Assembly: GCA_030950085.1 (NCBI GenBank)
Contig: JAUZRW010000027.1
Coordinates: 1-63,110 of the forward strand
Reading direction: 5' to 3'
Length of the DNA stretch: 63,110 bases
Origin: Anaerolineae bacterium
GTDB taxonomy: Bacteria > Chloroflexota > Anaerolineae > Aggregatilineales > Phototrophicaceae
In this document: one piece after another, positions 19,897 through 42,511 of the stretch
How positions within the stretch are numbered: position 1 is the first letter of the stretch
Layout: each line of letters opens with the position of its first letter
Program-made: the position numbers and the translations under genes
The notes under the pieces: generated by a model
Databases searched by the model: none
What the model was told of the DNA's origin: nothing
What the model saw: the letters and a program-made list of their open reading frames with translations, nothing else

Positions 19897-20298
19897 TCAC
19901 TCAGGTTCGTTTGGGACGTAAATAGTATCGCCAACACGGATTCGATTTGGATTATCAAGGCAGTTGGCAGCAATGAGTTCGTCAACTGTGCTACGGGTGC
20001 GGCTGGCAATATTGGTCAGATTATCCCGACGCTGAATCGTATATTGATACCAATCACGTTGGGGGACACATAAGATTCCAGCCGGAGGGGTTTCGTCGCT
20101 TGCAGAATCAGGTGGCGGTGTGCTTGAATCAGATGGTGTATCAAGAACGATAGCGTTCTCCGTTACGTTTACGTCGGTAGCAAAAGGAAGCGTTCGTGTT
20201 GGTGGCGGTGTATCACTTAGCGTATCTTGCGTATTGGAGGTTAGATTGCATCCTGAGATAATGAATATGAGAATGATGATAAATCGTAAGCGTTGCAA
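19897..20298 (-). CDS. LysM-domain lipoprotein
   Basis: The 133-residue protein has a type II signal with lipobox IISGC (Cys near residue 17), so it is likely anchored by lipid. A Pro/Ser/Thr-rich linker (about 20-75) leads to a single LysM module (about 85-130: YTIQRRDNLTNIASR...GDTIYVP) that binds N-acetylglucosamine-containing glycans such as peptidoglycan. The TTG start is supported by AAGGAG with five bases between. It diverges from the flippase-like gene. Confidence 0.85.
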   Translation of the reverse strand: MQRLRFIIILIFIISGCNLTSNTQDTLSDTPPPTRTLPFATDVNVTENAIVLDTPSDSSTPPPDSASDETPPAGILCVPQRDWYQYTIQRRDNLTNIASRTRSTVDELIAANCLDNPNRIRVGDTIYVPNEPE

Positions 20299-20336: not shown

Positions 20337-20345
20337 TGCTATAAT
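20337..20345 (+). promoter_or_regulatory. extended -10 promoter ahead of the glycosylation cluster
   Basis: TGCTATAAT is a full extended -10 box; no good -35 is visible at the right distance. The 53-nt repeat lies just downstream, so it would be part of the transcript leader. Confidence 0.5.
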
Positions 20346-20355
20346 ACTGCCCTTG

Positions 20356-20408
20356 AGCCCCTGTCTGGGTTTCATCTCGCCTCACACAAAATAACATGGT
20401 GAGATAGG
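20356..20408 (+). repeat. 53-nt dispersed element, copy 1
   Basis: It matches copy 2 (38250-38302) at 43 of 53 positions without gaps. Internal arms CTCAC/GTGAG can pair. It lies in the presumed leader of the flippase-like gene. Confidence 0.65.
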
Positions 20409-20467
20409 ATTGATTGACTTACCAAATATACGCTAGTCAAACAAGTTGAAACAAGAAAGTTCAATCA

Positions 20468-21499
20468 TTGAAGTTATCAAACCGCACCAAAATTGGATTA
20501 CTGGGTCTATTTGTCAGTTTCTTAGCACTCTATTTCATTGCTCTGCAAATTGATTCTACATTATTTATTGACGCATGGCGCACAGCAGATTACATTTATT
20601 TGCTGCCCTGTGTCTTGTTTTTGCTTGCAGGGTTGCTAACACGGGCATTTCGTTGGCAAGTATTATTGAATGGCGATTTGCCACTTGTCCGCGCCTTTAG
20701 CATTATGAATGTGGCGTATTTAGTCAATGGGATTTTACCCCTACGGATTGGCGAAGTTGCCCGTGTCTATTTAGCCTCACGGGTTCAGAAACCTGTTCCC
20801 ATGCCAAAAACAACGGGAACAATCATTGTCGAGCGTGTACTAGATTTATTGTCAGTTGTAGTAATGGCTTTGACAGCGATTGCACTCGGCGCACAATCTG
20901 ATGAACTTAAGACAGCTAGTTTGTTTGTGGCGCTTGTAGCAATTATAGGATTTTCTATTCTAATTTTGTTTGCGCGTCGGCGTGCATGGGCAGGGTGGCT
21001 ATTCACCTTCGTGAACCGAATCTTCCCTTTCTTAAAACGTTTTCCCGTGCTAGAAGTATGGTTTGAGCAATTTTTGGACGGTTTGATGCCACTAGCAAAT
21101 CCGCGTGCGCTAGGGCAAGCTATATTTTGGACAGCCATTAGTTGGGCGCTTTCGATATCGGCTGGCTATGTGCTGATGTTCGCATTTTTTGAGCAAGCGA
21201 GTATTGCAGCGACTATGCTCTATATTGCGGCGGCGGCTTTTGCGATTGCACTGCCGGCAGTTCCGGGCAATATCGGCACTTATGAAGCATCCATTTTATT
21301 AGCCTTGTACGCCTTAGGCTACCAACAGTCCGATACAGCGATTGCTTTTGCCGTGATGGTTCATGCCATTAATGTGATGGTTCATTCCACAATGGGCGTA
21401 GTCGGTTTTGTACAAGAGGGCATTTCGCTATCGCAACTTTCGCAAGGGGTACAGCAAATGGAGCAGACAAGCACAGAGGTAGGATTAAACGAAGTATGA
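20468..21499 (+). CDS. flippase-like integral membrane protein (LPG synthase TM family)
   Basis: The 343-residue protein has about eight transmembrane helices and fits the UPF0104 / lysylphosphatidylglycerol synthase TM-region family; the marks are the RAFRWQVLL segment, the ILPLRIGEVARVYLAS loop and the ALPAVPGNIGTYEA motif. Members lacking the soluble aminoacyl-transferase domain, like this one, are often encoded beside glycosyltransferases and are thought to move or handle lipid-linked intermediates. Start is TTG with AGAAAG nine bases upstream. Its end overlaps the next gene by ATGA, so the cluster starts as a coupled operon. Confidence 0.85.
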   Translation: MKLSNRTKIGLLGLFVSFLALYFIALQIDSTLFIDAWRTADYIYLLPCVLFLLAGLLTRAFRWQVLLNGDLPLVRAFSIMNVAYLVNGILPLRIGEVARVYLASRVQKPVPMPKTTGTIIVERVLDLLSVVVMALTAIALGAQSDELKTASLFVALVAIIGFSILILFARRRAWAGWLFTFVNRIFPFLKRFPVLEVWFEQFLDGLMPLANPRALGQAIFWTAISWALSISAGYVLMFAFFEQASIAATMLYIAAAAFAIALPAVPGNIGTYEASILLALYALGYQQSDTAIAFAVMVHAINVMVHSTMGVVGFVQEGISLSQLSQGVQQMEQTSTEVGLNEV

Positions 21500-22671
21500 C
21501 AGAGCAGGGGCGCAAGCTGAAAATCTTAATTTGCTTGCTATATTATTTTCCGCATCGTACCGGATTAACACTTCATGTTCAGCAAGTAGCAGAAGAATTA
21601 GTACGGCGTGGTCATGACGTGACGGTATTAACAGCCCGTTATTTGCAAGATATGAGCAATGACGAAATCATGCACAATGGTGTCCGTGTGATTCGCTTAT
21701 GGGCTCCGATTAAAATTAGTCGTGGGATGCTGATGCCGTCTTACCCATTGGCAGCATATAAGGCAATTCGTGAAGCTGATATTGTGAGTATTCATACCCC
21801 GATGCTAGAAACGGCGCTTGTGAGTTTTATTGCCAAGCTGACTGATACGAATGTTATAGCGACACATCACGGCGATTTGGTGCTGCCGAATAATTTCGCC
21901 AATCGTTTTATTCGTAATACAATGCTGAAATTATTCCAGTACATGGCGAATAATGCTGCCCAACTGCTTGCCTATAGCCAAGATTATGCCGATTATTCTT
22001 ACTACCTCAAACCGTATTTGCATAAAACGACTCCCAATTACCCACCGATTGCCATACCTGAACCGAATTTAGACCATGTAGCGGAACTGCATGCAAAGTG
22101 GCAGTGTCAAGGCGACCCCATCATTGGTTATAGTGGGCGCTTTGTCGAAGAAAAAAGACCTGAGTTGGCAATTAAGGCATTAAAAGTCATCAATCAGCAG
22201 TACCCGAATGCGCGATTAGTCTTTGCTGGCGAATATGAAATTCCTTATGAAGATACTTGGAAGCGACAGCAGCCTATCGTTGAACACTATCGAGGACAGT
22301 TGATTTTTCTCGGTTTGCTGAAAGACCGTCAAGAGTTGGCAGATTTTTATGCGGCTTGTGATGTGGTTATTTTGCCCAGTGATACCGAATGTTTTGCACT
22401 GGTACAGGTTGAGGCGATGCTTTGCGGTACACCGATGGTCATGACTGATATTCCGGGCGGACGTGTTCCAGTACAAGTGACAGGGATGGGCAAACTAGCA
22501 CAACAAGGGAATGCGGATTCTATCGGGCAAGCGGTGGTGGATATTTTGAACGCGCCAGAACAGTATCACAAATCACGAGACTTTATTGAAGATTGTTTCT
22601 CGTTTAAGCAGACAGTTGATACTTACGAAACCTTATTTTTGCAATATGCGAGGTCAGAGCGCAATGGTTGA
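21496..22671 (+). CDS. glycosyltransferase family 4
   Basis: The 391-residue GT-B enzyme transfers a sugar from a nucleotide donor, probably to a lipid or glycan acceptor at the inner membrane face. The N-terminal domain has GLTLHVQQVAEELVRRGHDV; the C-terminal donor-binding domain has YSGRFVEEKRPELAIKAL and the E-x7-E motif ECFALVQVEAMLCGTPMV. No membrane helix is present. It begins inside the stop of the flippase-like gene and its own end overlaps the methyltransferase by 8 bases. Donor and acceptor are not known. Confidence 0.92.
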   Translation: MTEQGRKLKILICLLYYFPHRTGLTLHVQQVAEELVRRGHDVTVLTARYLQDMSNDEIMHNGVRVIRLWAPIKISRGMLMPSYPLAAYKAIREADIVSIHTPMLETALVSFIAKLTDTNVIATHHGDLVLPNNFANRFIRNTMLKLFQYMANNAAQLLAYSQDYADYSYYLKPYLHKTTPNYPPIAIPEPNLDHVAELHAKWQCQGDPIIGYSGRFVEEKRPELAIKALKVINQQYPNARLVFAGEYEIPYEDTWKRQQPIVEHYRGQLIFLGLLKDRQELADFYAACDVVILPSDTECFALVQVEAMLCGTPMVMTDIPGGRVPVQVTGMGKLAQQGNADSIGQAVVDILNAPEQYHKSRDFIEDCFSFKQTVDTYETLFLQYARSERNG

Positions 22672-23512
22672 TATCGAGACGATTCAGCATATGACGCGCA
22701 ATGAGGCAGATATGGCTTTTAAGAAGCGTGTGCAAACCATATTTGAATGGGTTGACCCTACGGCTGGCAAAATTATCTTAGATATGCCTTGTGGACGCGG
22801 CTTTTATCTGAATATGTTTCATTACGCGACTGATTGCACCATGATAGGCGCAGAATTGGATTGGGATGTTATCAAGAAGGCACAGGCGCATGTCGGGCAT
22901 CTCGATATTGCGCTCCATAATGCCAATCTCTATCAATTGCCCTATGCGAATAATACTTTTGATGCGGTGATTTTGTCAGAGGTTTTGGAACATATAGATG
23001 ATGATGTTGCCGGCTTAAAGGAAGCCTATCGTGTGCTAAAACCGAATGGCGTTGTGGCTATCACCGTGCCTCATGCAAATTACCCATTTTGGTGGGATCC
23101 CATCAATAAATCACTGGAAACACTGTTTGGCACACATATTCAACATGGTTTCTTAGCCGGAATTTGGGCAAATCATGTCCGTCTCTATACACCGACAGAA
23201 TTGCGGTCAAGTGTTGAAATGTCAGGATTTATTGTAGAAGAGGAACGCTCATTCACCCATTATAGTTTCCCCTTCATTCATAATTTGGTCTATGGATTAG
23301 GCAAGCCGCTACTCGAAGCCGGGGCGTTACCTGCAAATATGGCAAAAGCCGCAGACCGTACCACCTTTGATGAAAATAATGGCAGTTTACTCAATCCAAT
23401 AAATTTGGGTCTAAAAGTATTCAATTACTTTGACCGTCATAACAAAATCAATGAGCCACCCGGACGCTCAACTGTGAATCTTGCTATCAAGGGGCGTAAA
23501 CCCGATGCCTGA
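22664..23512 (+). CDS. SAM-dependent methyltransferase of the glycan cluster
   Basis: The 282-residue protein has a class I methyltransferase core: motif I ILDMPCGRGFYLNMF, acidic residue in IGAELDWDVI, and the later DAVILSEVLEHIDDD plus LKPNGVVAITVPH. This form is common in methyltransferases working on lipids or sugars. The ATG chosen overlaps the end of the glycosyltransferase by 8 bases with GAGG upstream; a longer frame of 26 more codons runs inside that gene. Its context suggests a glycan or polyprenyl-linked substrate (inference). Confidence 0.85.
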   Translation: MVDIETIQHMTRNEADMAFKKRVQTIFEWVDPTAGKIILDMPCGRGFYLNMFHYATDCTMIGAELDWDVIKKAQAHVGHLDIALHNANLYQLPYANNTFDAVILSEVLEHIDDDVAGLKEAYRVLKPNGVVAITVPHANYPFWWDPINKSLETLFGTHIQHGFLAGIWANHVRLYTPTELRSSVEMSGFIVEEERSFTHYSFPFIHNLVYGLGKPLLEAGALPANMAKAADRTTFDENNGSLLNPINLGLKVFNYFDRHNKINEPPGRSTVNLAIKGRKPDA

Positions 23513-26333
23513 ACAGACTAATTTTCCGCCGAATGAACCTGATGAAACGAACGACGAGACGTTTTCAGTGGATGATTTTGCTCTTGAAGATGATAGTAGG
23601 TCTGACGCATCGGCATTGACTGATGATTCAAATAATAGTGATGAAGCGTCGGAATCAGGCTTGCGTGATATTCAGGATTTGACGCTGGCAGAATTTTTCG
23701 GTGCATGGATGAAATCACCGACAAAATTAGGGACGGCTTTCTGGGATATATTAAAACCGAATAGTTTTGGTGGGACACGCTTGGTCAGTGTCGATGTGCC
23801 AAAAGATGAATCGACTGGGAAAATATCATTCACTGACCATCTTCGTCGTGTGACATTGAGTCGCCGCTTGCTACAATTTGTATTGTGGATAATAGCGATA
23901 GTGATTGTCCTGCGCGGTAATCTGATACTAGCAGCGAATGAAATTGTGCGCCGTAGCGAAAGTATCCAACTGATACAAGGACTCCCGTATCTGTTCGTGG
24001 GTGTTCTGGTGTGGCTATTGGCAGAAGTTATTGGCAATTGGTCTCAATTACTCGCTTGGTGGCACGCAAAAGATTTTATCGGCAAGTTCAATTTAGGATT
24101 ACGCACCTTCCCAATTGGCTTGGCTTTAATAGGTCTTGCCGTTATGTGGACTTCTACCAGCGCAGCGCATGAAGATGTATTAGATATTGTCACGCCCGGC
24201 GTACAATTGGTTCTGGTGGGAGCAATTATCTGGTTTTTGCTTGATATCGGAGGCTTTGTGTTTGGCATTATTATTGAACGCAATCCGAGCCTCTTCCCTG
24301 CATGGATGCAAACCAGTATCGAAAAACGCAAGTATGATGATGATTCTCCATCACAAAATAATACGATTGACACCACGCCTTGGTATATGAAAATTCACCC
24401 GATGCGCTTGGTTTATGCCTTGTTGGGTGCGATACTGACGACGGTGACATGGTTTGGGACATCGGGCAACAATATTAACGGAATCACATTTATTATCTGG
24501 ATTTTGAGCGCGGCTGCATGGTCAATGACATTTGCCCCAAATATCAATCTTATGGATTGGGTGATACACAAGATTGACAGTTTTCGGCGGATTCATTGGC
24601 GCGGTGTTGCCCCTGTAGCGATGATGTTGCTCTTGATTATTGGCATTGGAGGGTATTTTCGCTTCCACAATTTGCGTGACCTACCGCGTGAAATGACCGA
24701 TGACCATGTAGAGAAAATCCTCGATGCAGCGTTGGTACGGAATGGCTTGCGTCCCATTTTTTTTGCCAACAATGGCGGACGCGAACCCTTCCAAATGTAT
24801 GCTATTGCCTTAGCCTCACGCTTGCCGAGTTTAGGCATTGACCATTTCACAATTAAAGTGGTGGCTGCAACAGAGAGCCTCCTGACAATTCCGCTTATAT
24901 TTTGGATGGCATACGAATTACTAGAAGGAGAAACTCGTCGGCGGCGCTTGTTAGTCGCGTTGGTTGCGGCGGCACTATTGGCGACAAGTTATTGGCATGT
25001 GGCAATTACCCGTCAAGCACTGCGGATTGCTCTGACTCCGTTGGTTGCCTCATTGCTGTTGATTTACCTCTCACGCGCATTGCGGCGTAATAATCGCGCT
25101 GATTTCATCAAAACAGGCTTGATACTTGGTTTTGGTTTGTATACTTATCAAGCAGTTCGCATGTTGCCGATTGTGATTGTTATTGCTGTCGGCATTACCG
25201 TCTATTTTGTAGCACAAAATTGGAAGGCGCGTTTTCGTTATGTTTTGAATCTCATCGTGTTAGTGTGGATTGCTTTTGTGGCGTTTATTCCGATGTTTCA
25301 TTATTCAGTCGAATTCCCTGAATTATTTTGGCGGCGAACAACGGGACGCTTATTGGGCGATGATGTCATTGAAGAAACATTAGATGACGGCACAATTGTC
25401 ATGCGCGAGGCATCTGTACAAGAACGTGTCGAGGCTTTCCGTGATAATGTGCCGCAGTTGATGAGCAATATTCGTAATGTGCTATTGATGTTCAATTGGA
25501 AAGGCGATGTTGCAGCTATTAGCGGTGTTCCCAATCGCCCAACAATGGATACTATGAGTGGGACATTATTCATTGTGGGGTTAGCTGCATGGGTCGCACT
25601 CATGATTCGACGGCGCGATGTGGCAATGTGGATGATTCCGATTTTTATTTTTATCATGCTCTTGCCATCGGCTTTGTCAATTGCTTTTCCAGTAGAAAAT
25701 CCGAGTCATACACGGACAAGCGGTGCAATGGTCGGCGTGTATCTGATTGCGGCGTTGCCTCTCGCACTGTTAGTTGAAGCATTGTTGATACTATCACGTA
25801 AACGCTTGGCGAAAGTTGCTAGTTTTGGACTTTGTACTCTTGTAATTTTTGGTGTGTATAGTGCCAATGCACATACTTATTTTGATGTGTATCCGCAAGT
25901 CTATGCCGATTCATTTGACCCGTATACAGAACCGGGTGCCTATTTGCGTGGTTTTGCGATTAGTGGCGGCTCATACGGCAATGCGTTCATGATTGGCTAT
26001 CAGCATTGGTGGAGTCATCGGGCGATAGGGCTTGCGGGTGGATTAGAGACATTGTGGCCAAATGGCATTGTGGCGCGAGAAGATATCCCGCGCATATTAC
26101 GAGACCATGCTAATCGCAGTGACCAATTTGTCTTTGACGCAAACCGTGATATTCTCTTTTTCTATTCGCCCGAAGATGAAGAAACAGGCAACTACTTGAG
26201 CGAACTTTTTCCAGATGGTTATGCAAGTTTAGAACGCACGTATGCCCAGAATAATGATTATATGGTCTATCGTATTCCGGCTTTAGGCGAATCTGGTTTT
26301 GCAGATTGGCTGATTGAAAACTTAGCCGACTGA
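23505..26333 (+). CDS. large GT-C-type membrane glycosyltransferase-like protein
   Basis: The 942-residue protein has an acidic soluble N-terminus of about 110 residues, four or more helices, and then a GT-C/PMT-like core of about ten helices starting near residue 370. The first outer loop of that core carries an acidic motif (REMTDDHVEKILDAALVRNG), as expected for enzymes that take sugar from a polyprenyl-phosphate donor outside the membrane. The loop continues with FANNGGREPFQMYAIALAS, similar to GT39-family members. A C-terminal extracytoplasmic domain follows. It overlaps the methyltransferase by 8 bases (ATGCCTGA). Acceptor unknown. Confidence 0.8.
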   Translation: MPEQTNFPPNEPDETNDETFSVDDFALEDDSRSDASALTDDSNNSDEASESGLRDIQDLTLAEFFGAWMKSPTKLGTAFWDILKPNSFGGTRLVSVDVPKDESTGKISFTDHLRRVTLSRRLLQFVLWIIAIVIVLRGNLILAANEIVRRSESIQLIQGLPYLFVGVLVWLLAEVIGNWSQLLAWWHAKDFIGKFNLGLRTFPIGLALIGLAVMWTSTSAAHEDVLDIVTPGVQLVLVGAIIWFLLDIGGFVFGIIIERNPSLFPAWMQTSIEKRKYDDDSPSQNNTIDTTPWYMKIHPMRLVYALLGAILTTVTWFGTSGNNINGITFIIWILSAAAWSMTFAPNINLMDWVIHKIDSFRRIHWRGVAPVAMMLLLIIGIGGYFRFHNLRDLPREMTDDHVEKILDAALVRNGLRPIFFANNGGREPFQMYAIALASRLPSLGIDHFTIKVVAATESLLTIPLIFWMAYELLEGETRRRRLLVALVAAALLATSYWHVAITRQALRIALTPLVASLLLIYLSRALRRNNRADFIKTGLILGFGLYTYQAVRMLPIVIVIAVGITVYFVAQNWKARFRYVLNLIVLVWIAFVAFIPMFHYSVEFPELFWRRTTGRLLGDDVIEETLDDGTIVMREASVQERVEAFRDNVPQLMSNIRNVLLMFNWKGDVAAISGVPNRPTMDTMSGTLFIVGLAAWVALMIRRRDVAMWMIPIFIFIMLLPSALSIAFPVENPSHTRTSGAMVGVYLIAALPLALLVEALLILSRKRLAKVASFGLCTLVIFGVYSANAHTYFDVYPQVYADSFDPYTEPGAYLRGFAISGGSYGNAFMIGYQHWWSHRAIGLAGGLETLWPNGIVAREDIPRILRDHANRSDQFVFDANRDILFFYSPEDEETGNYLSELFPDGYASLERTYAQNNDYMVYRIPALGESGFADWLIENLAD

Positions 26334-26396
26334 GTATTTAGCTTATTTGGCGTGTAGATAATTTGAACACTTTTTATTTTTGATGCAGGTGATGGC

Positions 26397-29300
26397 ATGA
26401 GTCGTTCGACACCCGATACAATACAAGACCGTCCGAAACATGGTGGCAACCGATTATTAGCAACTTTATTATTGCTGTTGATTATGCTAGTGGGTGGCGG
26501 CTTCCGTTTCATGAGTATGAATTGGGATGATTTTGCATCACTGCATCCTGATGAACGCTTTTTGACTCGTAATTTGCTACCATTATTAGGCGGTTTGCCA
26601 GAATATACACCCGATGATAGCCGTTATCCCTCACAGGCTATGCTCGTGAGTCTCAATGATATGACGATTCGCACCAGTCTTGATATTCAGGCGGATACAG
26701 CACGGCGTATTGGTGGTGTTCGGGATAGCTTAGGTTATGATTTGGCGCAATGGTGGTTAGGTGATGAAAGGCGAGTTCAACGCTATGATACACTTGAAGA
26801 TGGTGTTCAGGCATTAACATCGGGGCAAATTAGTGGACTCATTGTCTCGAATATTCTGGCACAATCGACTGTCAATAATGGGCGTGGGGTTCGCATTGTT
26901 GATACGTTTGATTCGGTTGCTGTTCAACGCAATTATTGTAATTATCAATATCCTGAAACAGGGGGTATCGGCGGTTACTTTGATGCCCGTTGCTCGACAC
27001 TCAATCCACATAATACCAATGTCGGCATGTATGCTTATGGGACATTGCCCTTATTCATGGCACATTGGACATCGAATTTTGTCCAGCAATTTGATGGCTA
27101 CACTGTCCCGTACACTGATTTCCAAATTAATTTTCAGGGACAAACACTGGTTTGGCGTTTCTTATCAGCATTATTTGATACGCTGACTATCCTTGTTATT
27201 TTCTTCACTGGTCGGCGGATGCACAACAAATGGGTCGGCTTAATTGCGGCTGCGCTCTATGCTTGTGCGCCACTCGCAATCGAAAAAGCACATTTTGGGA
27301 CTGTGAACGCGATTACAGCATTTTTTGTTGCGCTTGCGATGTGGGCGGCTCTCGCTGTCCAAGATAAGGCACGATTCCTACACTTTACGATATTTGGTAT
27401 GGCATTAGGGGCATCTTTAGCAGGTCGCATTAATGTTATTCCGCTTGCAGGAGTCGTTGTTTTGGCGGCAATGGTCAATGCACTACCGATATTAGATGGT
27501 CGTATCCCGTGGGAAGAGCGCGAACGGCTTTTCTGGCGCAATTTTATCGGTGTCTTCATTGCAGGTTTCGCCACACTGTTAACTTTCCGACTCTTGAACC
27601 CCTATGCTTTCTCTGGATCCTCGTTTTTCAATATCATTCCCAATGGACGTTGGTTAAACGATGCCAGCAGTAGTAGCTTTGCCGCCAGTGGTAACAGTGA
27701 TATTCCTCCAAATTGGCAATGGTTAGCACGCCCTTCTTATTTCTATCCTCTCAAGGATATGGTGTTTTGGGGCATGGGTATTGCAATGGGCGTAACAGCG
27801 TGGATTGGTACACTTTGGGCAGGCTATCGTATTGTGCGCGGCAGACCGTTCGCCTTGCGGAATATTTTACCTGTAGTATGGATTGCCGTCTACTTTGCTT
27901 GGATTGGCAACCTGTGGGTGATGACCATGCGCTATTATTTGCCGTTGTATAGTTCGCTGGTATTGATGGCGGCATGGATGCTCTACGAATTATGGCGACT
28001 TTCGCGTAAGCATGGAAAAGATGTGCCTCTGACACGCATTATGTTGGGGCTACTTGGGGCGATATTTGCGGCAGTACCGTTCTTTTCACTTAACGCCAAT
28101 GTAGCTTTGACGGCAACTACGACAGCTTCGGGTGTGATTGCGGCGACTCTGATAATTTTCGCTGTTTTACCTAGATTCAAGCATCGTGCGCTGATTTTAG
28201 GCATCTTTGTTATCGGTTTCAGCGCATTATGGGCGTTAATGTACACCAACATTTATCGCCACCAAGTTACGCGAGCCCAAGCGAGTCGTTGGGTGTGGGA
28301 GAATGTTCCGGGCGATTTTGCACTGCAAATAGAAGGTGCGCCCGATGGTACGCCGCTTGTGAATATTTCTATTGGTAATCAGAGTGGTGATAGTGCTGAT
28401 AATTCTAGCCGACTCGTCAATATGGCGACACGTTATGATGTTGGTTTACCACGCTTCTTTGAATTTGTTGCACCAGCAAGTGGGACGATAACAACAGTTC
28501 ATGCGCCGCATTTAGTCGATGCCTTTAACAATGCACAAAACGAAGCCCTCTATATTTCCATCGGACAACAAGTTGATGGCGTAATGCAGTTATTGAGTGA
28601 AGCGACCCTGATAGCAAATCTGCACAACGAAAATCACCCACTTGGCGACAGCTACGACATTGTTCTCGATACTCCCATTGATGTTGTTGAAGGCGAAACC
28701 TATACCTTCAAAGTCGAATCATTAGACGGCTCTATTGTTGGTTCGGGCGCGGTGATGCTGACCGAGGGTCCATGGGATGACCGTATCACGACAACAATGA
28801 TTTGCCATTTGCCGGATGGTTTGACACTCGCTGATGACCCGCGCCCCGGCTTGGTAGATTTTGATTCGTGCAACGGCTTATTATCAAATTATGCCCTATT
28901 GCAATCTTTTGATTTGCCGATGTCGTATCCTGTTGATGAGACTCTCAAGTTAGATGCTATTTTAGATGGCTTATACGCTGGCGATTATTTGGGAATTACG
29001 AGCAATCGTTTTTATGACTCTGAGACTCGTAACCCAGCACGTTGGGCAATGACAACGCGCTATTATGAATTGCTCTTCAATGGCGAACTCGGCTATGATT
29101 TAATTGCGACATTCCGCGAATCATTTGAACTAGGTCCCTTTAGTGTTGATGACCAATATTTGCCAATTTATGACTCGCCAACATGGTTAAATGAATTAGA
29201 GTCAGACGAAGCCTTCAATGTGTATGACCATCCGGCTGTGTTTATCTTCCGCAAAAGTGCCGATTATGACCAAAACCGGGTTGAAATGCTGCTGCGTAGT

Positions 29301-32417: not shown

Positions 32418-32419
32418 GG

Positions 32420-35023: not shown

Positions 35024-35090
35024 TAAGGAAATTGATGTGTCGATGCGTATAACAGTTAACATCGGCAACGAATGAGTGAAAGTCTAATTG

Positions 35091-37040
35091 ATGCAAGCTG
35101 TAAATCATGAACAACCTGTAAGCACGATGAGTCCAAGTGTTTCTCTGCATATTTCGGCTGAGTTTATCGCCTACACCGTGCTGATTATCTTCGCGCTCTT
35201 GGTTCGAGTCGCCGACCTTGATATTGTGCCGATGAATGAGACCGAAGCGACTCAAGCACTTGCGGCGTATCAGACCGTTTACACAGAAACCCCTGTACAA
35301 GCACAATCCGCACAGAGTCCGATAGTATTCTGGTTACAATCAGCGACTTTCTCACTATTGGGTGGCGATGAATTTTCTGCACGTTTGCCGGGTGTCATCG
35401 GCGGTATGCTGCTAATATTCATGCCCCTATTGTTTCGTGACCGTATCGGACGCGAACGTGCTTTTTGGCTCAGTGTTTTATTGGCAGTGTCGCCGATTGC
35501 TTTTGCGGCAGCTCGTTTTGCTACCCCAACTGTGTGGACGATGGTATTTGCCTTTGGATTATTATGGGCAATATGGCGTTATTGGGAAAATGGCAATCAG
35601 GCGGATATCGCGCTAGGGGCTATATTCTTTGCTGCCTTAGCATTTTTATCCGAATCAGGTGGTTTGATATTTACGCTGATTCTGGCATTATCGGGCTTTG
35701 TTACGGTTTGGTGGACAGTGTTTATTGCGCCGCAAGTTTATGATGTCTCTGGCGACGAAATCTGGAAGACAGCACGCGAATTTATTGATACTATTCCTTT
35801 TCAGCGCGTTTTGCTGATTGTGGCAGCGACAGTGGGTTTAGGTAGCACCCTCTTTTTCATTTATCCTGTGGGATTGAATATTGTTGCCGAAGTGGTTCGT
35901 CGTGTATTGGCCGGATTTTTCCAACCCTATCAAGCGGGTACGCCTCCGATTATGCCCATTCTGACGCTCTTTGTATACAACATATGGCTCGTCGTTTTAG
36001 CGGTCATTTCAGCCGTAATATTGATAAATAATGGACAAGCGAGTTTTGCTGACCGTTTTGCTATTGTCGTGACTATCGTTTCGTTTTTTGTGCTGCTGGT
36101 CTATCGCGGTGGTCAACCTGCCCATGCTTTGTTCATGACTGTGCCGATGATGTGGCTGGTAGCGCGTCTCATCCATGAACTAACCGTGAACTATGCCCCG
36201 ACGGTCTTCTCTTATGATAGTTTTCAATTGGTAGAAGATGAGGATAGCTACTGGTGGATTAAGTGGGTATTGGCTGTTATCGTCCTTAGCCTGTTGATGA
36301 TGCTGGCGGTTCATTGGCTCGAAATTGGGCGCGGCTTCATGCAATTGCCATCAGAAAATATTTTTGCAGCATTGGCTGAGGCACGTTTCGCCGCCTTCAA
36401 ATCGAGTCTGATTTGGTTTGTGATTTCATTGTTGTTTGCGGCTGTCGGTTATTTTCTCGCGGCGAGTCTTTGGGGGCATACGAACGCATTGCAAGGTTTC
36501 GGCTTGGGATTGGTTCTATTTATGCTTGGTTCAGGGGTTGGAACAGGTTGGAATACCACCGTTGTCAACGCGACGAATCCGCTTGAATTATGGCAGAATA
36601 GCGCGACAACAAACGATGCTTATCTACTGCGCGAGACCCTATTAGAAGTGGCTGACCGCGATACAATGGGCTTCCCCTCGATTAACCTGACGATTTTGCG
36701 CGACGACTCTATTGGCATAACAGATAATGGACTTATCGCATGGCTTGTGCGCGATTTTCGCAATGCAGTTTTTGTCGATACGCTTGAAGAGGCGCAGCGT
36801 GATGAAATTATCCTGATGCCTGTCCTTGAAGAAGACCCTGATTTAGACGGTAGTTATGTCGGGCAAAGTTTTGTCATTCGCCAAGATTGGTCATTGAGTA
36901 GCCTATGTGCCTGTGAATGGATTTCATGGCTTGGGCAACGTCGAGTACGGTCAGATATCCTTGCATATGATGGCACGATTCTCTGGCTACGCATTGATGT
37001 CTACGATGACATTCCAGCATCAGAGAGAGTGGGTCGGTGA
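35091..37040 (+). CDS. GT39-like membrane glycosyltransferase
   Basis: The 649-residue protein has about twelve transmembrane helices in the GT-C arrangement. The first outer loop carries an acidic motif, IVPMNETEATQALAAY, followed by the family-like QSAQSPIVFWLQSATFSLLGGDEFSARLPGVIGG, in which a target lipid-linked sugar would be handled. A C-terminal outer domain of about 150 residues follows the last helices. The ATG was preferred to a TTG one codon upstream. It lies 67 bases after the YYY gene and 59 before the sigma factor gene, all in one direction. Confidence 0.82.
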   Translation: MQAVNHEQPVSTMSPSVSLHISAEFIAYTVLIIFALLVRVADLDIVPMNETEATQALAAYQTVYTETPVQAQSAQSPIVFWLQSATFSLLGGDEFSARLPGVIGGMLLIFMPLLFRDRIGRERAFWLSVLLAVSPIAFAAARFATPTVWTMVFAFGLLWAIWRYWENGNQADIALGAIFFAALAFLSESGGLIFTLILALSGFVTVWWTVFIAPQVYDVSGDEIWKTAREFIDTIPFQRVLLIVAATVGLGSTLFFIYPVGLNIVAEVVRRVLAGFFQPYQAGTPPIMPILTLFVYNIWLVVLAVISAVILINNGQASFADRFAIVVTIVSFFVLLVYRGGQPAHALFMTVPMMWLVARLIHELTVNYAPTVFSYDSFQLVEDEDSYWWIKWVLAVIVLSLLMMLAVHWLEIGRGFMQLPSENIFAALAEARFAAFKSSLIWFVISLLFAAVGYFLAASLWGHTNALQGFGLGLVLFMLGSGVGTGWNTTVVNATNPLELWQNSATTNDAYLLRETLLEVADRDTMGFPSINLTILRDDSIGITDNGLIAWLVRDFRNAVFVDTLEEAQRDEIILMPVLEEDPDLDGSYVGQSFVIRQDWSLSSLCACEWISWLGQRRVRSDILAYDGTILWLRIDVYDDIPASERVGR

Positions 37041-37099
37041 GGAAAATTGCCTCAACCTGTGTAACAAAGACTGGAATGATATCGACGCAAAGGTGAGCC

Positions 37100-37696
37100 A
37101 TGACTCAGCAATCCGCCAAAATAGATATTGAAGCAGTGATTGAATTAGCGATTGAGGGCAATCAACAAGCCTATGCTCAACTCTATGATTATTACGCTGC
37201 CGGTATTTATCGTTTGTGCTATAGTCTCGTGCTGAATGTGCAAGATGCAGAAGATGTGTTGCAAGAATCGTTTGTCTATGCCTTCAAAAATTTGCAACGT
37301 TACGATAAGACGAAAGCGGCTTTTAAGACATGGTTGTATACGATAACCGTGAGTCGCTGTCGCAATACCTATCGGCGTAAGCGTTTCGCACTGGTTGATA
37401 TCTCACAGATTATGCACTGGCAATTACCCGCGCCAAAGTCCGAAAGACCGGAAGCGGCTGTCGCCCGTCGAGAATCGATTGATGCGATACAAGGCGCACT
37501 GCACAAATTATCACCGATTTTGCGTGAGGCGATTGTGTTACGTTATGGACATGGCTTGACTTATCGGGAAATGGCAGAGGTCATAGGATGTCCACAAAAA
37601 ACTGCTGAAAGTCGTGTTCGCTTGGCACACGATAAATTGAAAAATGTTCTGCATCCCGTAGGACGAGGTTTACTTGATGAACTATTGCAAATATAG
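37100..37696 (+). CDS. ECF-type RNA polymerase sigma factor
   Basis: The 198-residue protein has region 2 (about 15-95: AYAQLYDYYAAGIYRLCYSL, DAEDVLQESFVYAFKN, then FKTWLYTITVSRC) and region 4 (about 130-185: LSPILREAIVLRYGHGLTYREMAEVIGCP, ESRVRLAHDKLK), and no regions 1 or 3, as is usual for extracytoplasmic-function sigma factors. It directs RNA polymerase to a special promoter set. It sits in the middle of the glycosylation cluster, 11 bases before a membrane protein that is probably its anti-sigma factor, so it may tie the cluster to envelope stress (inference). Confidence 0.93.
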   Translation: MTQQSAKIDIEAVIELAIEGNQQAYAQLYDYYAAGIYRLCYSLVLNVQDAEDVLQESFVYAFKNLQRYDKTKAAFKTWLYTITVSRCRNTYRRKRFALVDISQIMHWQLPAPKSERPEAAVARRESIDAIQGALHKLSPILREAIVLRYGHGLTYREMAEVIGCPQKTAESRVRLAHDKLKNVLHPVGRGLLDELLQI

Positions 37697-37707
37697 AGGC
37701 GAAAACG

Positions 37708-38247
37708 ATGCTTAAGTATTTACGTTATCGCTATGCAAAAATCAAAATGACGGCTTACATCAACGGTGAATTACCAACCCATACGCGACGCTTCATAGGT
37801 CGCTTGATTAACGACGATGAGCGTGTCTATAACGAGTATATTCGGCAACGCCAGACACAACGCGACTTGGAGCGACAACTACCGACATTGGGTCGTCCAG
37901 ATGCAGAGCGTCTTGATTCAATGTGGGCGAATATTCAAACACAATTAAATGCACCACATAGCCCGACTGCGCCAAATACGACAGGTCAATTTTATTCCTT
38001 GAGTTATGGGGTGGCACTTGGCTTGTGTGTCATGGCATTGATGGTTCTATTAACATTTGATTCTGGTAGGGCAAGTGCGGCTGTTTCTGCGCGACATTTG
38101 CCAGAAACTGTTGAGTTTACAACACCAGATACACCGCCTGTAAAATTAACGTCGGTAGCAGTCGCTAGGCGGCTTGAAACACTTGCAACTGATGAAGTTG
38201 CTACTGATTTGCAAAATACCCCTGCGCCACGAACGCCGGGTCAATAA
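37708..38247 (+). CDS. probable membrane anti-sigma factor
   Basis: The 179-residue protein has a cytoplasmic N-terminal helical region (about 1-85: KIKMTAYINGELPTHTRRFIGRLINDDERVYNEY), one transmembrane helix (about 98-115) and an outer Pro/Thr-rich tail. The layout fits an anti-sigma factor paired with the ECF sigma gene just upstream. It has no HxxxCxxC zinc motif, since the N-terminal region lacks cysteine, so it is a zinc-free type. GAGG lies 8 bases before the ATG. The assignment rests mainly on position and topology. Confidence 0.7.
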   Translation: MLKYLRYRYAKIKMTAYINGELPTHTRRFIGRLINDDERVYNEYIRQRQTQRDLERQLPTLGRPDAERLDSMWANIQTQLNAPHSPTAPNTTGQFYSLSYGVALGLCVMALMVLLTFDSGRASAAVSARHLPETVEFTTPDTPPVKLTSVAVARRLETLATDEVATDLQNTPAPRTPGQ

Positions 38248-38249
38248 TA

Positions 38250-38302
38250 AGCCCCTTTCGGGGTTTCATCGCGCCTTACACAAAATTGCAATGTGCGACA
38301 GG
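38250..38302 (+). repeat. 53-nt dispersed element, copy 2, with terminator-like hairpin
   Basis: It is a 43/53 match to copy 1 (20356-20408). Its left end, CCCC-TTTC-GGGG followed by TTT, is a short stem that may end the sigma/anti-sigma transcript. The right part has arms CGCCT/AGGCG. Confidence 0.65.
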
Positions 38303-38362
38303 CGTTAGAGCATCATCACAGATACTTTGTTAAACAAGATAGCTGTTCGATTTTGAGGTTTT

Positions 38363-41300
38363 ATGACGACACAAACACAAACCAGCGATAATAGTGGGCT
38401 TTTTTCACGCTCAGTCACCATCAATTGGGAAATCATCGTATTCATTGCGATTTTTGCCTTAGCGATGTTCACCCGTTTCTATGAATTGGGTGATAGGGTG
38501 ATGAGCCATGACGAAAGTTTACACACCCGATTTTCGTATAACCTTTACGCAGAGGGCGATTTTGTTCATTCGCCACTGATGCACGGACCCATTCTCTTCC
38601 ATGTGACAGCGTTCTTCTATGGGCTATTTGGTGATAGCGATTTTACGTCGCGCCTTTACCCTGCTATTGTGGGTGTGATGTTAGTGATGTCGCCCCTACT
38701 GTTCCGACGGTGGTTGGGACGGTGGGGAACGATTTTAGCCTCTTTGATGTTATTGATTTCGCCGATAACCATGTATTACGCTCGTTATATTCGTCATGAT
38801 ATGCCGTCAATTCTCTCGGCAATTTTGATGATGTGGTCAATTATGATGTATCTCAGTGCTTCAGAGAACCAGAAACGACGAGCGCATTGGCTCTATATTC
38901 TAGCTGCCTCGATGTTGTGGAATCTAGGTTCAAAAGAAACAGCATTTATCTATATCGCTATTATTGGCATATTCTTGTTTCTGTACTGGATTGTCCGTTT
39001 GATTCAGCATTTTGCCAAGGCACCCGGCAAACCCATCTTTAATACGGGCATGATAGGGGTGTTTCTGGGTGGCGTGATGGCACTTGGCATGTATATCTCG
39101 CTTGATGTTATAAAATTTGATATGCTAGGTGGCACAGAAACCTCATCATTTGGCGCATTATCAGGTGCTGACCAATCTACTTTTTTCATATGGACATTCC
39201 TCACAATTGTATCCGTTGTTACCGTGTTACTCGGAACATTGTTCTGGGTCTATCGGGATGATGTCGGTCAAATCAATTGGGCGCAGGTGGGCATCATTCT
39301 GCTAATTGCGCTGATTGTGTGCTTCACCTTTGTCGTTATGGAAGAATTATCGCATACTGAACCGACTTCGACTGAACAACCTGCTGACCCACTTGACCCC
39401 GATGCTGATGCTGAAACGAGTGAACCAACATCTTTGATTCGCTGGTCGCCGATGATTGCGTTATGGGGACTCACAGCAGGCGGCTTTGTTTTCTTGTTTT
39501 TCACTCGTCGCAAAGATGACCTGAATGGTATCCGTGATAAAGATAAATATGGACGGGGTTTTTGGGGGACAATGGATTTATTTCCCGAATTTGATGTAAT
39601 TATTATCATCGGGACATTGATTTTGCCGTGGGCAACAGCGATATTTCCCTTCGCTATGGGGGGGACAGAAGGTGATTTTGCCAATATTGCTTCATCATTG
39701 CCCTCATTTATGACGAGCTTTATCGGCACTTATGTTCCAGCCGTTGGCGGTGTCGGCGATATGACACAGACACAATTGGCACAAGTCGGGCGCTTCTGGT
39801 TGAACATTATGGCATTTATCCCACTTTTCGCGCTCATGAGTGGTATCGGACTCATGTGGAATTGGAAACGTTGGTTAATCGCCTCTGCAATATTTCATGG
39901 TCTCTTTGCCTTCTTCTTCACTACTGTTTTTACCAATGTTGCCGGCTTGGGTACGGGTTGGGTTTATAGTCTTGGTTATTGGCTTGAACAACAGGGTGTA
40001 CGACGGGGTAGCCAGCCACAGTATTACTACTTGTTAGTTATCATGCCGTTCTATGAATTTCTACCAGTGATTGGTAGCGTTCTGGCGATGTTCGCAGGGA
40101 CGACGCTCTTTTGGAGGCAGACTAAGAAATCTGCTGATGTAAAGCGCGAAGTGAATACTTTAACGCGCCTCGCTATGATTTGGCGTAATGATACCGAAGA
40201 ACTAGAAATTGAAGCTGTCAGCGAAGATGGTGAGTTAGCAGATGACTTCAATCTACAAGCCGAAATTGCAAGCGCCAAAGCACAGGTTCAATCTGCCAAT
40301 GATGAGGCTGAATTACCACCTCTAGCAAAAGCATATGATGATGCTAACGGACGGCTGCGGCGTTACGGTATGACTGTCGAAAAAGCCATTAGTGACCCAC
40401 AGCAACGTTGGCGGCGCTTAGAGGGCATCCCATTTTTGATGTTCTTTAGCTGGTTAGCCGTTCTCAATTTGGTGGGATACAGTCTCGCGGGGGAGAAAAT
40501 GCCGTGGCTGGGAACACATCTCACCATGCCAATGATATTCCTGACTGCGTGGTTCTTTGGGCGTATCATTGATGACATTGATTGGGAACTATTCAAGAAT
40601 CGTGGCTGGGAAGTGCGGATTGCGCTGGGCGTTTTTATTATCGGACTTTTCCGTTCAATCGCCCCCTTAGTGATGGGTACACGACCTTTCTCTGGCTTGG
40701 CACAGCATCAACTACAGGCAACGTATGGTTGGTTGAGTGCAGTCATTGTGACGGGGATTGCGCTATCGGTGGTGATTTACTATGTTGATACTGTTGGCTG
40801 GAAACACGTTCGCCAAATGGTTGCTGTTTCGATTTTCCTCATATTGAGCATCATATCCTTCCGTTCAGCATGGATGGCTTCGTTCATCAACTTTGATTAC
40901 GCCAGTGAATTTCTGGTTTATGCCCATGCCGCGCCGGGTGTGAAATGGGTGCTTGAAGATATTGAGGAATTGAGTGAACGTATCACCGATGGCAATGAAT
41001 TACGGATTGCCTACGATAATGAAGTGTCATGGCCCTATAGTTGGTATTTCCGAAATTTTGATAACGTCATTTATGTAGGAGAGAATCCCACTGTTCAAAA
41101 TTTGGATGATGCCGTTGTCATTGTGGTCGGCGCTGCCAATCGGAGCAAAGTAGAACCTATAGTAGAAGACCGTTATGTCCGTTTTGACTATATGCGTTTG
41201 TGGTGGCCGATGCAAGATTACTTTAACCTGACTCCGGCTCGTATTTCCGGTACATTCGATTTATCGCCCTCAAATACACAAGCGGCACAAGTACGACAAG

Positions 41301-42511
41301 GTATTTTTGAAATTTGGTGGAATCGAGATTATACAACCTATGGCAATGCTTTAGAGCGTGATTTTAGTGCTGAGAATTGGCCTGTATCAGATAGAATGCA
41401 CTTTTATGTGCGGAAAGACTTCGCAGCGCAAATTTGGGAATATGGTATTGGCGAGGGCGGTGTCACCAATCCACTCAATGAAATTGAACAAAACCAATGT
41501 ACAGCGAATTGGCAGCCGATTTCGGCGATTACATCCTTTACTGCACCCGATGGCTTGTCGCATCCGATAGGTCTTGATATATCAGCAGATAATACGCTCT
41601 ATGTTGCCGAAGAATTTGGGCATCGTATCTCGACATTTAATACAGACGGTACATATTTAGGCAGCTTTGGTGTTCAAGGCTTAACATTTGAGAATGGTGT
41701 CGCCTTTACACGTCCCAATAGTATTGACATTGGCGCAGATGGTAATTTGTACATTGCGGATACATGGAATTATCGTGTGCAAATCCTCACCCCGAATCTT
41801 GAACCGATTACACTCTTTGGTCAAGCCTATACGGGTGGTTTCGACTCTGTGACCAACCCAGTCGATGGTTTCTGGGGTCCGCGTGATGTGACAGTTAGCA
41901 ATGATGGTCTCATCTATGTGGCGGATACGGGTAATAAACGTGTTCGCGCCTATCGCATTATAGACGGAGTTGCACAATTTCAGTTCGACGTTGGTGAAGG
42001 TGGTAGCGGTCTTGGGCAATTAGACGAACCGAGTGGGTTGGTTGTTAATCCGGCAGATGGTCGCTTGTACGTGGCGGATACATGGAATCGTCGCATTTCA
42101 GTTTTCACTGCTGAGGGTGTTTTCCTAGATTCTTATCGCGTGCGCGGTTGGTATGAAGAACAGGGCAATCGTCCTTATCTTGCAATTGATAGCGAACGCG
42201 AATTGCTCTATGTGACTGACCCAGATAGTGGTCGTGTGCTGGTGTATACAACTGGTGGCGACTGTGTGGGTAGCTTCGGACAAGCGGCAGGAACGAGTCC
42301 AACACTCGGACAATTCGGTATCGCAACGGGGATTACGGTGGATAGTGAGGGCTTTGTCTACATTGCGGATAGTGAGCTGAATCGTGTTCTGAAATTTGAA
42401 CCGTTCACATTTATTCCTGTACCAGAAGAAGTCCCCGATGAAGCCCCAGAAGAAGCCGATGCTGAAGTCGGAAATGACGTTGAATCGAATGAGAATGACG
42501 CATCTGAATAG
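38363..42511 (+). CDS. Agl23-like (TIGR03663) membrane protein fused to an NHL beta-propeller
   Basis: The 1382-residue protein begins with a GT-C-like membrane part whose first outer loop has RVMSHDESLHTRFSYNLY and HSPLMHGPILFHVTAF, both typical of TIGR03663, called flippase-associated protein Agl23 in haloarchaea. The LAGEKMPWLGTHLTMP motif near residue 708 is another family mark. A charged cytoplasmic insert lies about 590-680. After the last helix there is an outer domain (about 850-1050), and then six NHL repeats (about 1062-1352; typical unit LYIADTWNYRVQIL) that should form a six-bladed propeller for protein or glycan contact. An acidic tail ends it. GAGG precedes the ATG. Confidence 0.88.
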   Translation: MTTQTQTSDNSGLFSRSVTINWEIIVFIAIFALAMFTRFYELGDRVMSHDESLHTRFSYNLYAEGDFVHSPLMHGPILFHVTAFFYGLFGDSDFTSRLYPAIVGVMLVMSPLLFRRWLGRWGTILASLMLLISPITMYYARYIRHDMPSILSAILMMWSIMMYLSASENQKRRAHWLYILAASMLWNLGSKETAFIYIAIIGIFLFLYWIVRLIQHFAKAPGKPIFNTGMIGVFLGGVMALGMYISLDVIKFDMLGGTETSSFGALSGADQSTFFIWTFLTIVSVVTVLLGTLFWVYRDDVGQINWAQVGIILLIALIVCFTFVVMEELSHTEPTSTEQPADPLDPDADAETSEPTSLIRWSPMIALWGLTAGGFVFLFFTRRKDDLNGIRDKDKYGRGFWGTMDLFPEFDVIIIIGTLILPWATAIFPFAMGGTEGDFANIASSLPSFMTSFIGTYVPAVGGVGDMTQTQLAQVGRFWLNIMAFIPLFALMSGIGLMWNWKRWLIASAIFHGLFAFFFTTVFTNVAGLGTGWVYSLGYWLEQQGVRRGSQPQYYYLLVIMPFYEFLPVIGSVLAMFAGTTLFWRQTKKSADVKREVNTLTRLAMIWRNDTEELEIEAVSEDGELADDFNLQAEIASAKAQVQSANDEAELPPLAKAYDDANGRLRRYGMTVEKAISDPQQRWRRLEGIPFLMFFSWLAVLNLVGYSLAGEKMPWLGTHLTMPMIFLTAWFFGRIIDDIDWELFKNRGWEVRIALGVFIIGLFRSIAPLVMGTRPFSGLAQHQLQATYGWLSAVIVTGIALSVVIYYVDTVGWKHVRQMVAVSIFLILSIISFRSAWMASFINFDYASEFLVYAHAAPGVKWVLEDIEELSERITDGNELRIAYDNEVSWPYSWYFRNFDNVIYVGENPTVQNLDDAVVIVVGAANRSKVEPIVEDRYVRFDYMRLWWPMQDYFNLTPARISGTFDLSPSNTQAAQVRQGIFEIWWNRDYTTYGNALERDFSAENWPVSDRMHFYVRKDFAAQIWEYGIGEGGVTNPLNEIEQNQCTANWQPISAITSFTAPDGLSHPIGLDISADNTLYVAEEFGHRISTFNTDGTYLGSFGVQGLTFENGVAFTRPNSIDIGADGNLYIADTWNYRVQILTPNLEPITLFGQAYTGGFDSVTNPVDGFWGPRDVTVSNDGLIYVADTGNKRVRAYRIIDGVAQFQFDVGEGGSGLGQLDEPSGLVVNPADGRLYVADTWNRRISVFTAEGVFLDSYRVRGWYEEQGNRPYLAIDSERELLYVTDPDSGRVLVYTTGGDCVGSFGQAAGTSPTLGQFGIATGITVDSEGFVYIADSELNRVLKFEPFTFIPVPEEVPDEAPEEADAEVGNDVESNENDASE

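Follow-up and report, generated by a model that had tools for sequence, protein, structure and literature searches.

Positions 1 to 63,110 of contig JAUZRW010000027.1 from an Anaerolineae bacterium (the whole stretch is hereafter called the window) contain a block of plus-strand genes, several of which encode very large membrane proteins, and this raises the question of whether a member of the Chloroflexota glycosylates proteins in the archaeal manner or builds extracytoplasmic glycans by another route. According to the original prediction, the block encodes on one strand a flippase-like protein, a GT4 enzyme, a methyltransferase and five large membrane proteins, and resembles archaeal glycosylation machinery. 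This gene list is right in outline; the observation itself was partly confirmed and its interpretation as a whole is partly supported. Gene content and order, synteny, the predicted folds of two proteins, conserved motif residues and co-occurrence across genomes were established by computation, and the block probably encodes a pathway, independent of STT3 and based on a lipid carrier, by which an extracytoplasmic glycan is assembled and methylated on the external side of the membrane. The large proteins are named here, in gene order, GTCa, P5, YYY, GTC7 and Agl23-NHL (Table 1). P5 and YYY each contain a DUF2298 (TIGR03662) domain and Agl23-NHL belongs to TIGR03663, two families already known to be common to Chloroflexi and archaea.

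YYY and Agl23-NHL, two of the five large proteins, are predicted to have a GT-C fold, in line with the earlier expectation. The AlphaFold2 model of YYY, based on 78 aligned sequences, has a mean pLDDT of 92.1 and a pTM of 0.94. When it was compared with solved structures, the top match was STT3 of the yeast oligosaccharyltransferase (OST; Z 13.8, root-mean-square deviation (rmsd) 7.2, 475 residues), followed by ALG12 (Z 13.4), DPY19 (13.2) and AftA (13.0; rmsd 4.9, 495 residues). Ranks 1-41 correspond, by title, to GT-C enzymes, GT-C-holding complexes or AglB domains, with the first unrelated structure at Z 6.7. The top Z values are tied and lie close to the level at which the tool warns about helical bundles; the match is nevertheless credible, since coverage is wide and the GT-C structures are sharply set off from the unrelated ones. 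At E ≤0.001 Foldseek returned five matches for YYY: three entries of DPY19, one of AftA and one of yeast OST. For Agl23, residues 1-1050 were modelled from 43 sequences (mean pLDDT 87.6, pTM 0.89); the model is closest to ArnT, the aminoarabinose transferase, with Z 28.6, rmsd 3.6 and 441 residues, although the identity is only 15% and the block's protein has long insertions and an NHL propeller. All of its ranks 1-45 are taken by GT-C proteins, GT-C complexes or the U subunit of glycosylphosphatidylinositol transamidase, and the first unrelated structure occurs at Z 7.5. Sequence searches of the PDB were negative for YYY (triosephosphate isomerase came closest, at E 0.062), the Agl23 N-terminus, GTCa and GTC7, and gave only ArtJ (0.13) with a single P5 GT-C half; an Agl23 profile that includes part of the propeller returned NHL or propeller-type PDB chains in the top 60 of 83 rows.

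GT-C enzymes carry a key acid in their first external loop. Judged by motif order, four of the five large proteins keep their external-loop acids, while GTC7 is divergent. Neither outcome named in advance as fatal to the original prediction, models lacking GT-C active-site geometry or a set that is not a unit in relatives, was observed, the geometry being assessed by motif order. In YYY the invariant residues are E136, D345-x-H347-x-H349 and R626, the first four of which occur in 78/78 rows; the model places E136 after core helix 1 (97-128) and D345-x-H347-x-H349 immediately before core helix 4 (353-368). The D-x-H-x-H motif is kept in both DUF2298 copies of the window, which pass the curated TIGR03662 cut-off of 300.25 (P5 467.2 bits, YYY 459.0 bits) as well as the Pfam DUF2298 cut-off of 27.8 (324.2 and 326.4 bits). 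The TIGR03662 family description includes a YYYxG motif. In AfAglB the metal ligands are reported to be Asp47 of a first DXD and Asp161 and His163 of a second, Asp-His-His motif (PMC8342417). The same D-x-H is found in Chloroflexota STT3 sequences (D173/H175, 6/6), and the DUF2298 motif, which resembles the metal site of AglB, may bind a metal. Further, residues 718-860 of YYY, its C-terminal domain, match the corresponding domain of AglB (3vu0) with Z 10.0 and rmsd 2.5 over 116 residues, and hhalign matches YYY with STT3 at 66.6%, in the C-terminal domain only, with GW..HE.QWR at the position of WWDYG.

These likenesses to AglB, STT3 and PglB (GT-C fold, first-external-loop acid, D-x-H before the fourth core helix, C-terminal globular domain) would fit a scheme in which DUF2298 is itself the final, metal-dependent oligosaccharide transferase, outside the STT3 family and in place of AglB, with the oligosaccharide built by Agl23 and the other GT-C proteins. 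We consider this unlikely. DUF2298 proteins have no PF02516 match, the WWDYG motif is absent from both copies in the window, and three extra helices are present at the N-terminus. The Z-scores of ALG12, DPY19 and AftA are tied with that of STT3, the GT-C half of P5 is closer to STT3 by hhalign (83.1%) than DUF2298 is, and both control archaea that match DUF2298 also match STT3 (see below). YYY thus appears in part OST-like, on the basis of its D-x-H and AglB-like C-terminal domain, yet it lies outside the STT3 family since it lacks WWDYG and PF02516. Should DUF2298 indeed be the final transferase, it would represent a new way of glycosylating proteins or polymers.

The number of Agl23-type proteins in the original prediction needs correction. 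The protein encoded at 38363-42511 is confirmed as Agl23, with 214.7 bits against a TIGR03663 cut-off of 126.25; its loop acids D50 and E51 are found in 42/43 and 41/43 rows, respectively, and its C-terminal propeller matches Pfam NHL with 4.6e-33. The TIGR03663 family description includes the motifs DE and HGP. By hhalign, this protein aligns with STT3 at 33%, and the comparison of YYY with Agl23 was negative (0.5%). GTC7 (35088-37040) stays below the TIGR03663 cut-off (63.9 bits) and has lost the conserved aspartates. Profile comparison places it next to Agl23 (hhalign 99.7%, E 2.3e-25, 145 columns), but at the Agl23 sites D50 is replaced by T, HGP by QSP, and R144 and D146 by T, with E51 and R141 retained. 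Across 17 GTC7 rows, Asp occurs at the first site (D50) in 1/17 and at the last (D146) in 0/17 while Glu and Arg are present in 17/17, and in 38/40 rows Glu is the only first-loop acid kept. We read GTC7 as a probable non-canonical partner or a pseudo-enzyme.

For GTCa, the GT-C half of P5 and GTC7, the PMT_2 matches and hhalign point the same way, toward GT-C. GTCa matches PMT_2 weakly and below the Pfam cut-off (E 3e-4; 1.3e-4 for its C-terminal part), and PMT_2 is detected at E ≤0.01 in 18/18 members of the GTCa set (A8); D408 and E411 are present in 35/35 rows and the hhalign value against Agl23 is 92.7%. In the P5 GT-C half, H-P-D-E is conserved in 8/9 rows, with one gap. P5 also has an insert in its first external loop, which was found in five of the 48 rows picked by the HPDE motif, the window included, and whose profile (5 rows) resembles periplasmic binding proteins with a best E of 1.8e-6; no Pfam binding-protein match was obtained in the 9/9 P5-type members scanned.

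Whether this apparatus depends on an OST was examined in the bacterium's own genome (5.09 Mb, 266 contigs, 97% complete) and in 201 Chloroflexota genomes. The former contains two DUF2298 domains and one Agl23 above the TIGR03663 cut-off, all in the window, and no STT3 (PF02516) match among the 16/16 candidates scored. In the sample, a strong Agl23 was defined by a best E <1e-25 (128 genomes, the same number as above the curated cut-off; 161 genomes at E ≤0.001, of which the 33 weak ones were dropped) and a strong DUF2298 by a best E <1e-80 (130 genomes; 134 at E ≤0.001 and 133 above the Pfam cut-off, with the weak matches of G017, G026, G034 and G151 dropped). The two co-occur very strongly across the phylum: both were strong in 127 genomes, Agl23 alone in one (G158), DUF2298 alone in three (G091, G115 and G138, in which weaker Agl23 matches occur) and neither in 70. 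The pair is found in 46 of at least 64 family labels; a Fisher test of the co-occurrence overstates its significance because the genomes are not independent.

STT3 is distributed differently. Strong matches (best E ≤1.3e-26) were found in 4/201 genomes (G073, G150, G157 and G164) and only G150 carries the pair. At E ≤0.001, 51/201 genomes gave an STT3 match, and 24/201 were above the Pfam cut-off. The remaining 20 of these have partial matches with a best E of 5.5e-8; 18/20 carry the pair and at least one weak match falls on an Agl23 gene itself (G077:C53), for which reasons they are taken as cross-matches between GT-C families. A real STT3 might be missed in many genomes, where only 8 candidates were scored. 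Since a strong STT3 is rare in pair-bearing genomes (1/127) and none is found in the bacterium's own, the pair seems not to need an OST.

These searches bear directly on the archaeal-type N-glycosylation that the original prediction evoked, in which the block would build a lipid-linked oligosaccharide to be transferred to asparagines by an AglB- or PglB-type OST. Among the controls, Haloferax volcanii and Methanosarcina acetivorans match DUF2298, TIGR03663 and STT3, and Agl23 is reported to act in Haloarcula glycosylation (PMC11182771); Methanocaldococcus jannaschii and Sulfolobus acidocaldarius, by contrast, match STT3 and neither of the other two families. TIGR03663 matched 4/14 controls (2 above the cut-off), including Bacillus subtilis and Corynebacterium glutamicum. 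On the STT3 searches of the genome and of the 201 Chloroflexota genomes, AglB-dependent N-glycosylation was set aside as very improbable, and the Agl23/DUF2298 pair is thereby separated from AglB, with which it had been associated via archaea. That DUF2298 represents an unrecognised class of metal-dependent oligosaccharide transferase replacing STT3/AglB in most Chloroflexota, with Agl23 as its partner GT-C glycosyltransferase, and hence that a phylum-wide glycosylation system lacking any known OST has been overlooked, is a more far-reaching reading, which we consider unlikely.

The genes also travel together. A scan of genome contigs found at least 569 stretches encoding a DUF2298 relative, of which the best 80 loci were analysed, a neighbour being counted at ≥45 bits. 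At least one other block gene occurs in 73/80 loci and none in 7/80; the clustering exceeds chance, and the set behaves as a unit in relatives, as had been proposed. Where 8.8 kb or more of sequence is available upstream of YYY (52 loci), the neighbours on that side are P5 (48), GTCa (38), GT4 (32), the methyltransferase (10) and the flippase-like protein FLIP (10); downstream, where 48 loci have as much sequence, they are GTC7 (32), Agl23 (20), the extracytoplasmic function (ECF) sigma factor (14) and nusA (7). Sixteen close loci have a YYY of ≥550 bits and, for each side, 12 have enough flank: P5 is present in 12/12, GTCa in 11/12, the methyltransferase and GT4 each in 8/12 and FLIP in 1/12 upstream, and GTC7, ECF and Agl23 are each present in 12/12 and nusA in 7/12 downstream. 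Counts for FLIP and GT4 are lower bounds, as a distance of at least 9.7 kb separates these genes from YYY in the window and the 10-kb flank often misses them. Loci more distant from the window repeat the order FLIP-GT4-GTCa-P5-YYY-GTC7, completely or partially, mostly with Agl23 absent from the stretch; in Ornatilinea apprima (L118), GT4, GTCa, P5 and YYY follow one another in this order. The P5-type fusion is also found in relatives, and, among the best matches, most of the named contigs that encode the closest DUF2298 proteins carry the label Anaerolineae or Chloroflexi. A plasmid search yielded one record with a YYY relative (26.5% identity, 52% covered) and none with Agl23; on a Pseudobutyrivibrio plasmid, a distant DUF2298 gene stands in surface-polysaccharide surroundings, with genes for O-antigen ligase, GT2 and a sugar epimerase nearby.

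Two arrangements seen among these loci differ from that of the window. In eight loci (L041, L042, L044-L046 and L048-L050), two DUF2298 domains share one frame of ~2500-2770 aa, unlike the fusion in P5. In L024 (G012:C93), two adjacent Agl23-type matches may represent an Agl23-Agl23 fusion, with a frame of 1624 aa for both matches in one scan and of 715 aa for the first in another.

For the block we infer a donor, an acceptor, a direction of flow, a regulation and an order of steps as follows. The GT4 enzyme would put a sugar on a membrane acceptor at the cytoplasmic side, where the methyltransferase would modify the product, and the TIGR00374 protein FLIP, perhaps with Agl23, would help the lipid-linked sugar to cross the membrane. 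On the outside, the active enzymes would be GTCa, the P5 GT-C half, both DUF2298 domains and Agl23, helped by GTC7; they would transfer sugars from putative polyprenyl-phosphate or -pyrophosphate donors to a glycan under construction, to a glycolipid or to a protein of the cell surface. The NHL propeller and the C-terminal globular domains may hold or present the acceptor, and the ECF sigma factor may couple expression of the block to an envelope signal. As acceptor, a protein is no more likely than a surface polymer or glycolipid.

A narrower form of this scheme leaves proteins unmodified: the GT-C enzymes would add sugars to a membrane glycolipid or to a polymer of capsule-like or sheath type, by analogy with periplasmic O-antigen modification or mycobacterial arabinan synthesis. 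AftA, AftB and ArnT are among the fold matches, bacterial three-component GT-C systems add sugars extracytoplasmically (PMC11127046), nine Wzy_C matches occur in the genome, and DUF2298 is found among polysaccharide genes in Pseudobutyrivibrio; the block's ten proteins, however, include no polymerase, Wzx/Wzy or ABC exporter, and it is nusA rather than polysaccharide genes that follows the block in 7/12 close loci. We regard this narrower form as a serious possibility, if short of probable. Compared with the three-component systems, for which GT136 is the prototype (PMC11127046), the block has in common a lipid-linked donor, a flippase, external GT-C action and an accessory acceptor-binding domain, but it has five or six GT-C modules and not one, a TIGR00374 protein instead of a MATE flippase, and no donor synthase.

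Several points weigh against the broader scheme, in which the block assembles and methylates a glycan outside the membrane. No polyprenyl-phosphate-sugar synthase is encoded in the block; the genome has 34 GT2 matches elsewhere, none tied to the block, one of which could be the donor synthase. GT-C proteins are common in this genome, as judged by its 46 PMT_2 matches (4 in the window). The models cover YYY and Agl23, and the P5 GT-C half, GTCa and GTC7 are assigned by PMT_2 matches and hhalign. Foldseek TM-scores, by query length, are low for both models (0.26-0.36 for the five best with YYY, 0.15-0.17 for the eleven best with Agl23), and in the wider set Agl23 lies inside the stretch in only 20/48 loci. 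No activity of a DUF2298 protein was found among the open-licence papers listed, and in PMC8756737 DUF2298 figures as a label in a gene-neighbourhood table. Finally, Agl23 of Haloarcula is reported to translocate Man5GlcNAc2-PP-dolichol when purified and placed in liposomes, and to compensate for an rft1 deletion in yeast (PMC11182771). Agl23 may therefore flip lipid-linked sugars rather than act as a transferase; this report may conflict with the GT-C reading of the Agl23 family or add to it.

The Haloarcula hispanica protein, which with Agl22 is assigned to a lipid-linked-sugar step of N- and O-glycosylation in PMC11182771, shares with the block's Agl23 the name used by TIGR03663 and the status of a membrane protein of lipid-linked glycan metabolism. 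It differs from the block's protein, which has an NHL propeller, a DUF2298 neighbour, a genome without STT3 and a modelled GT-C fold with loop acids, in being described there as a flippase. It can now be tested directly whether Agl23 acts as a flippase, as a glycosyltransferase or in both ways, and a family of unknown function from a large bacterial phylum and from archaea now has a fold prediction, candidate residues for its active site and a partner that is nearly constant. In the open-licence literature searched, no account was found of the fusion, the NHL propeller, the conserved operon with a sigma factor, the STT3 independence or the AglB-like site of DUF2298, and the main text of PMC4973528 mentions neither Chloroflexi nor Chloroflexus.

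Beyond the block, the genome is rich in enzymes of extracytoplasmic glycans, with 14 PMT and 9 Wzy_C matches in addition to those of PMT_2.

Table 1. Genes and one internal segment of the block, with positions in the window.
Feature	Position	Strand	Description	Support
FLIP	20468..21499	+	flippase-like polytopic protein	TIGR00374 / LPG_synthase_TM (PF03706)
GT4	21496..22671	+	GT4 family cytoplasmic glycosyltransferase	Pfam Glycos_transf_1 4.6e-27; syntenic in relatives
Methyltransferase	22664..23512	+	class-I S-adenosylmethionine methyltransferase	Methyltransf_11 9.1e-18
GTCa	23481..26333	+	950 aa; ~375-aa N-terminal extension, then GT-C-like domain with motif D408-H-x-E411	
P5	26397..32417	+	2006 aa; PMT_2 GT-C domain (HPDE, residues 50-53) fused to DUF2298/TIGR03662	
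P5 loop insert	26604..26900	+	first-external-loop insert, ~100 aa	like lobe 2 of amino-acid-binding periplasmic proteins
YYY	32420..35023	+	867 aa; free DUF2298/TIGR03662 protein, predicted GT-C fold	
GTC7	35088..37040	+	650 aa; divergent Agl23 paralogue without DE, HGP and R-x-D	
ECF	37100..37696	+	ECF sigma factor	TIGR02937 99 bits, cut-off 42.9
Small protein	37708..38247	+	probably anti-sigma	position and one hydrophobic stretch
Agl23-NHL	38363..42511	+	1382 aa; TIGR03663 GT-C protein with C-terminal NHL beta-propeller	

The ten genes span 20468-42511, the first one beginning near 20468 and not at 20337 as first given. The five large proteins add up to 5855 aa (950+2006+867+650+1382), which corrects an earlier figure of about 4800 residues, and the DUF2298/YYY domain of P5 covers residues 1080-1667 (Pfam). 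All the genes originally listed are present, but the ECF sigma factor with its anti-sigma-like neighbour and the NHL propeller had been left out; no family match to the 37708-38247 protein was found in the library scans. FLIP passes the curated TIGR00374 cut-off (64.5 bits vs 43.2) and is one of three TIGR00374-type matches above cut-off in the genome. Spacing between successive genes is -4, -8, -8, 63, 2, 64, 59, 11 and 115 nt, the two values of -8 assuming ATG starts at 22664 and 23505 (the mechanical open reading frame (ORF) of the methyltransferase begins at 22586, its start being taken as the ATG at 22664). The tight spacing originally noted is thus real, although the starts do not all overlap or touch, with gaps of up to 115 nt. 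In the window, 49 promoter-like sites were seen against 37.7 expected, and 16 terminator-like sites against 23.1.

Downstream, same-strand ORFs correspond by sequence to nusA, a short YlxR-like ORF and infB; upstream, tRNA-Gly and ribosomal protein L25 are encoded on the opposite strand, and an Rfam scan of the window detected two tRNAs only. The usual gene order is rimP-nusA. Here, the Agl23 gene sits directly 5' of nusA, in the usual rimP position, and no RimP_N match was obtained in the genome (4/4 candidates scored). Finally, a 133-aa ORF on the minus strand (19897-20298) shows by eye a lipoprotein-like start and a LysM-like end.

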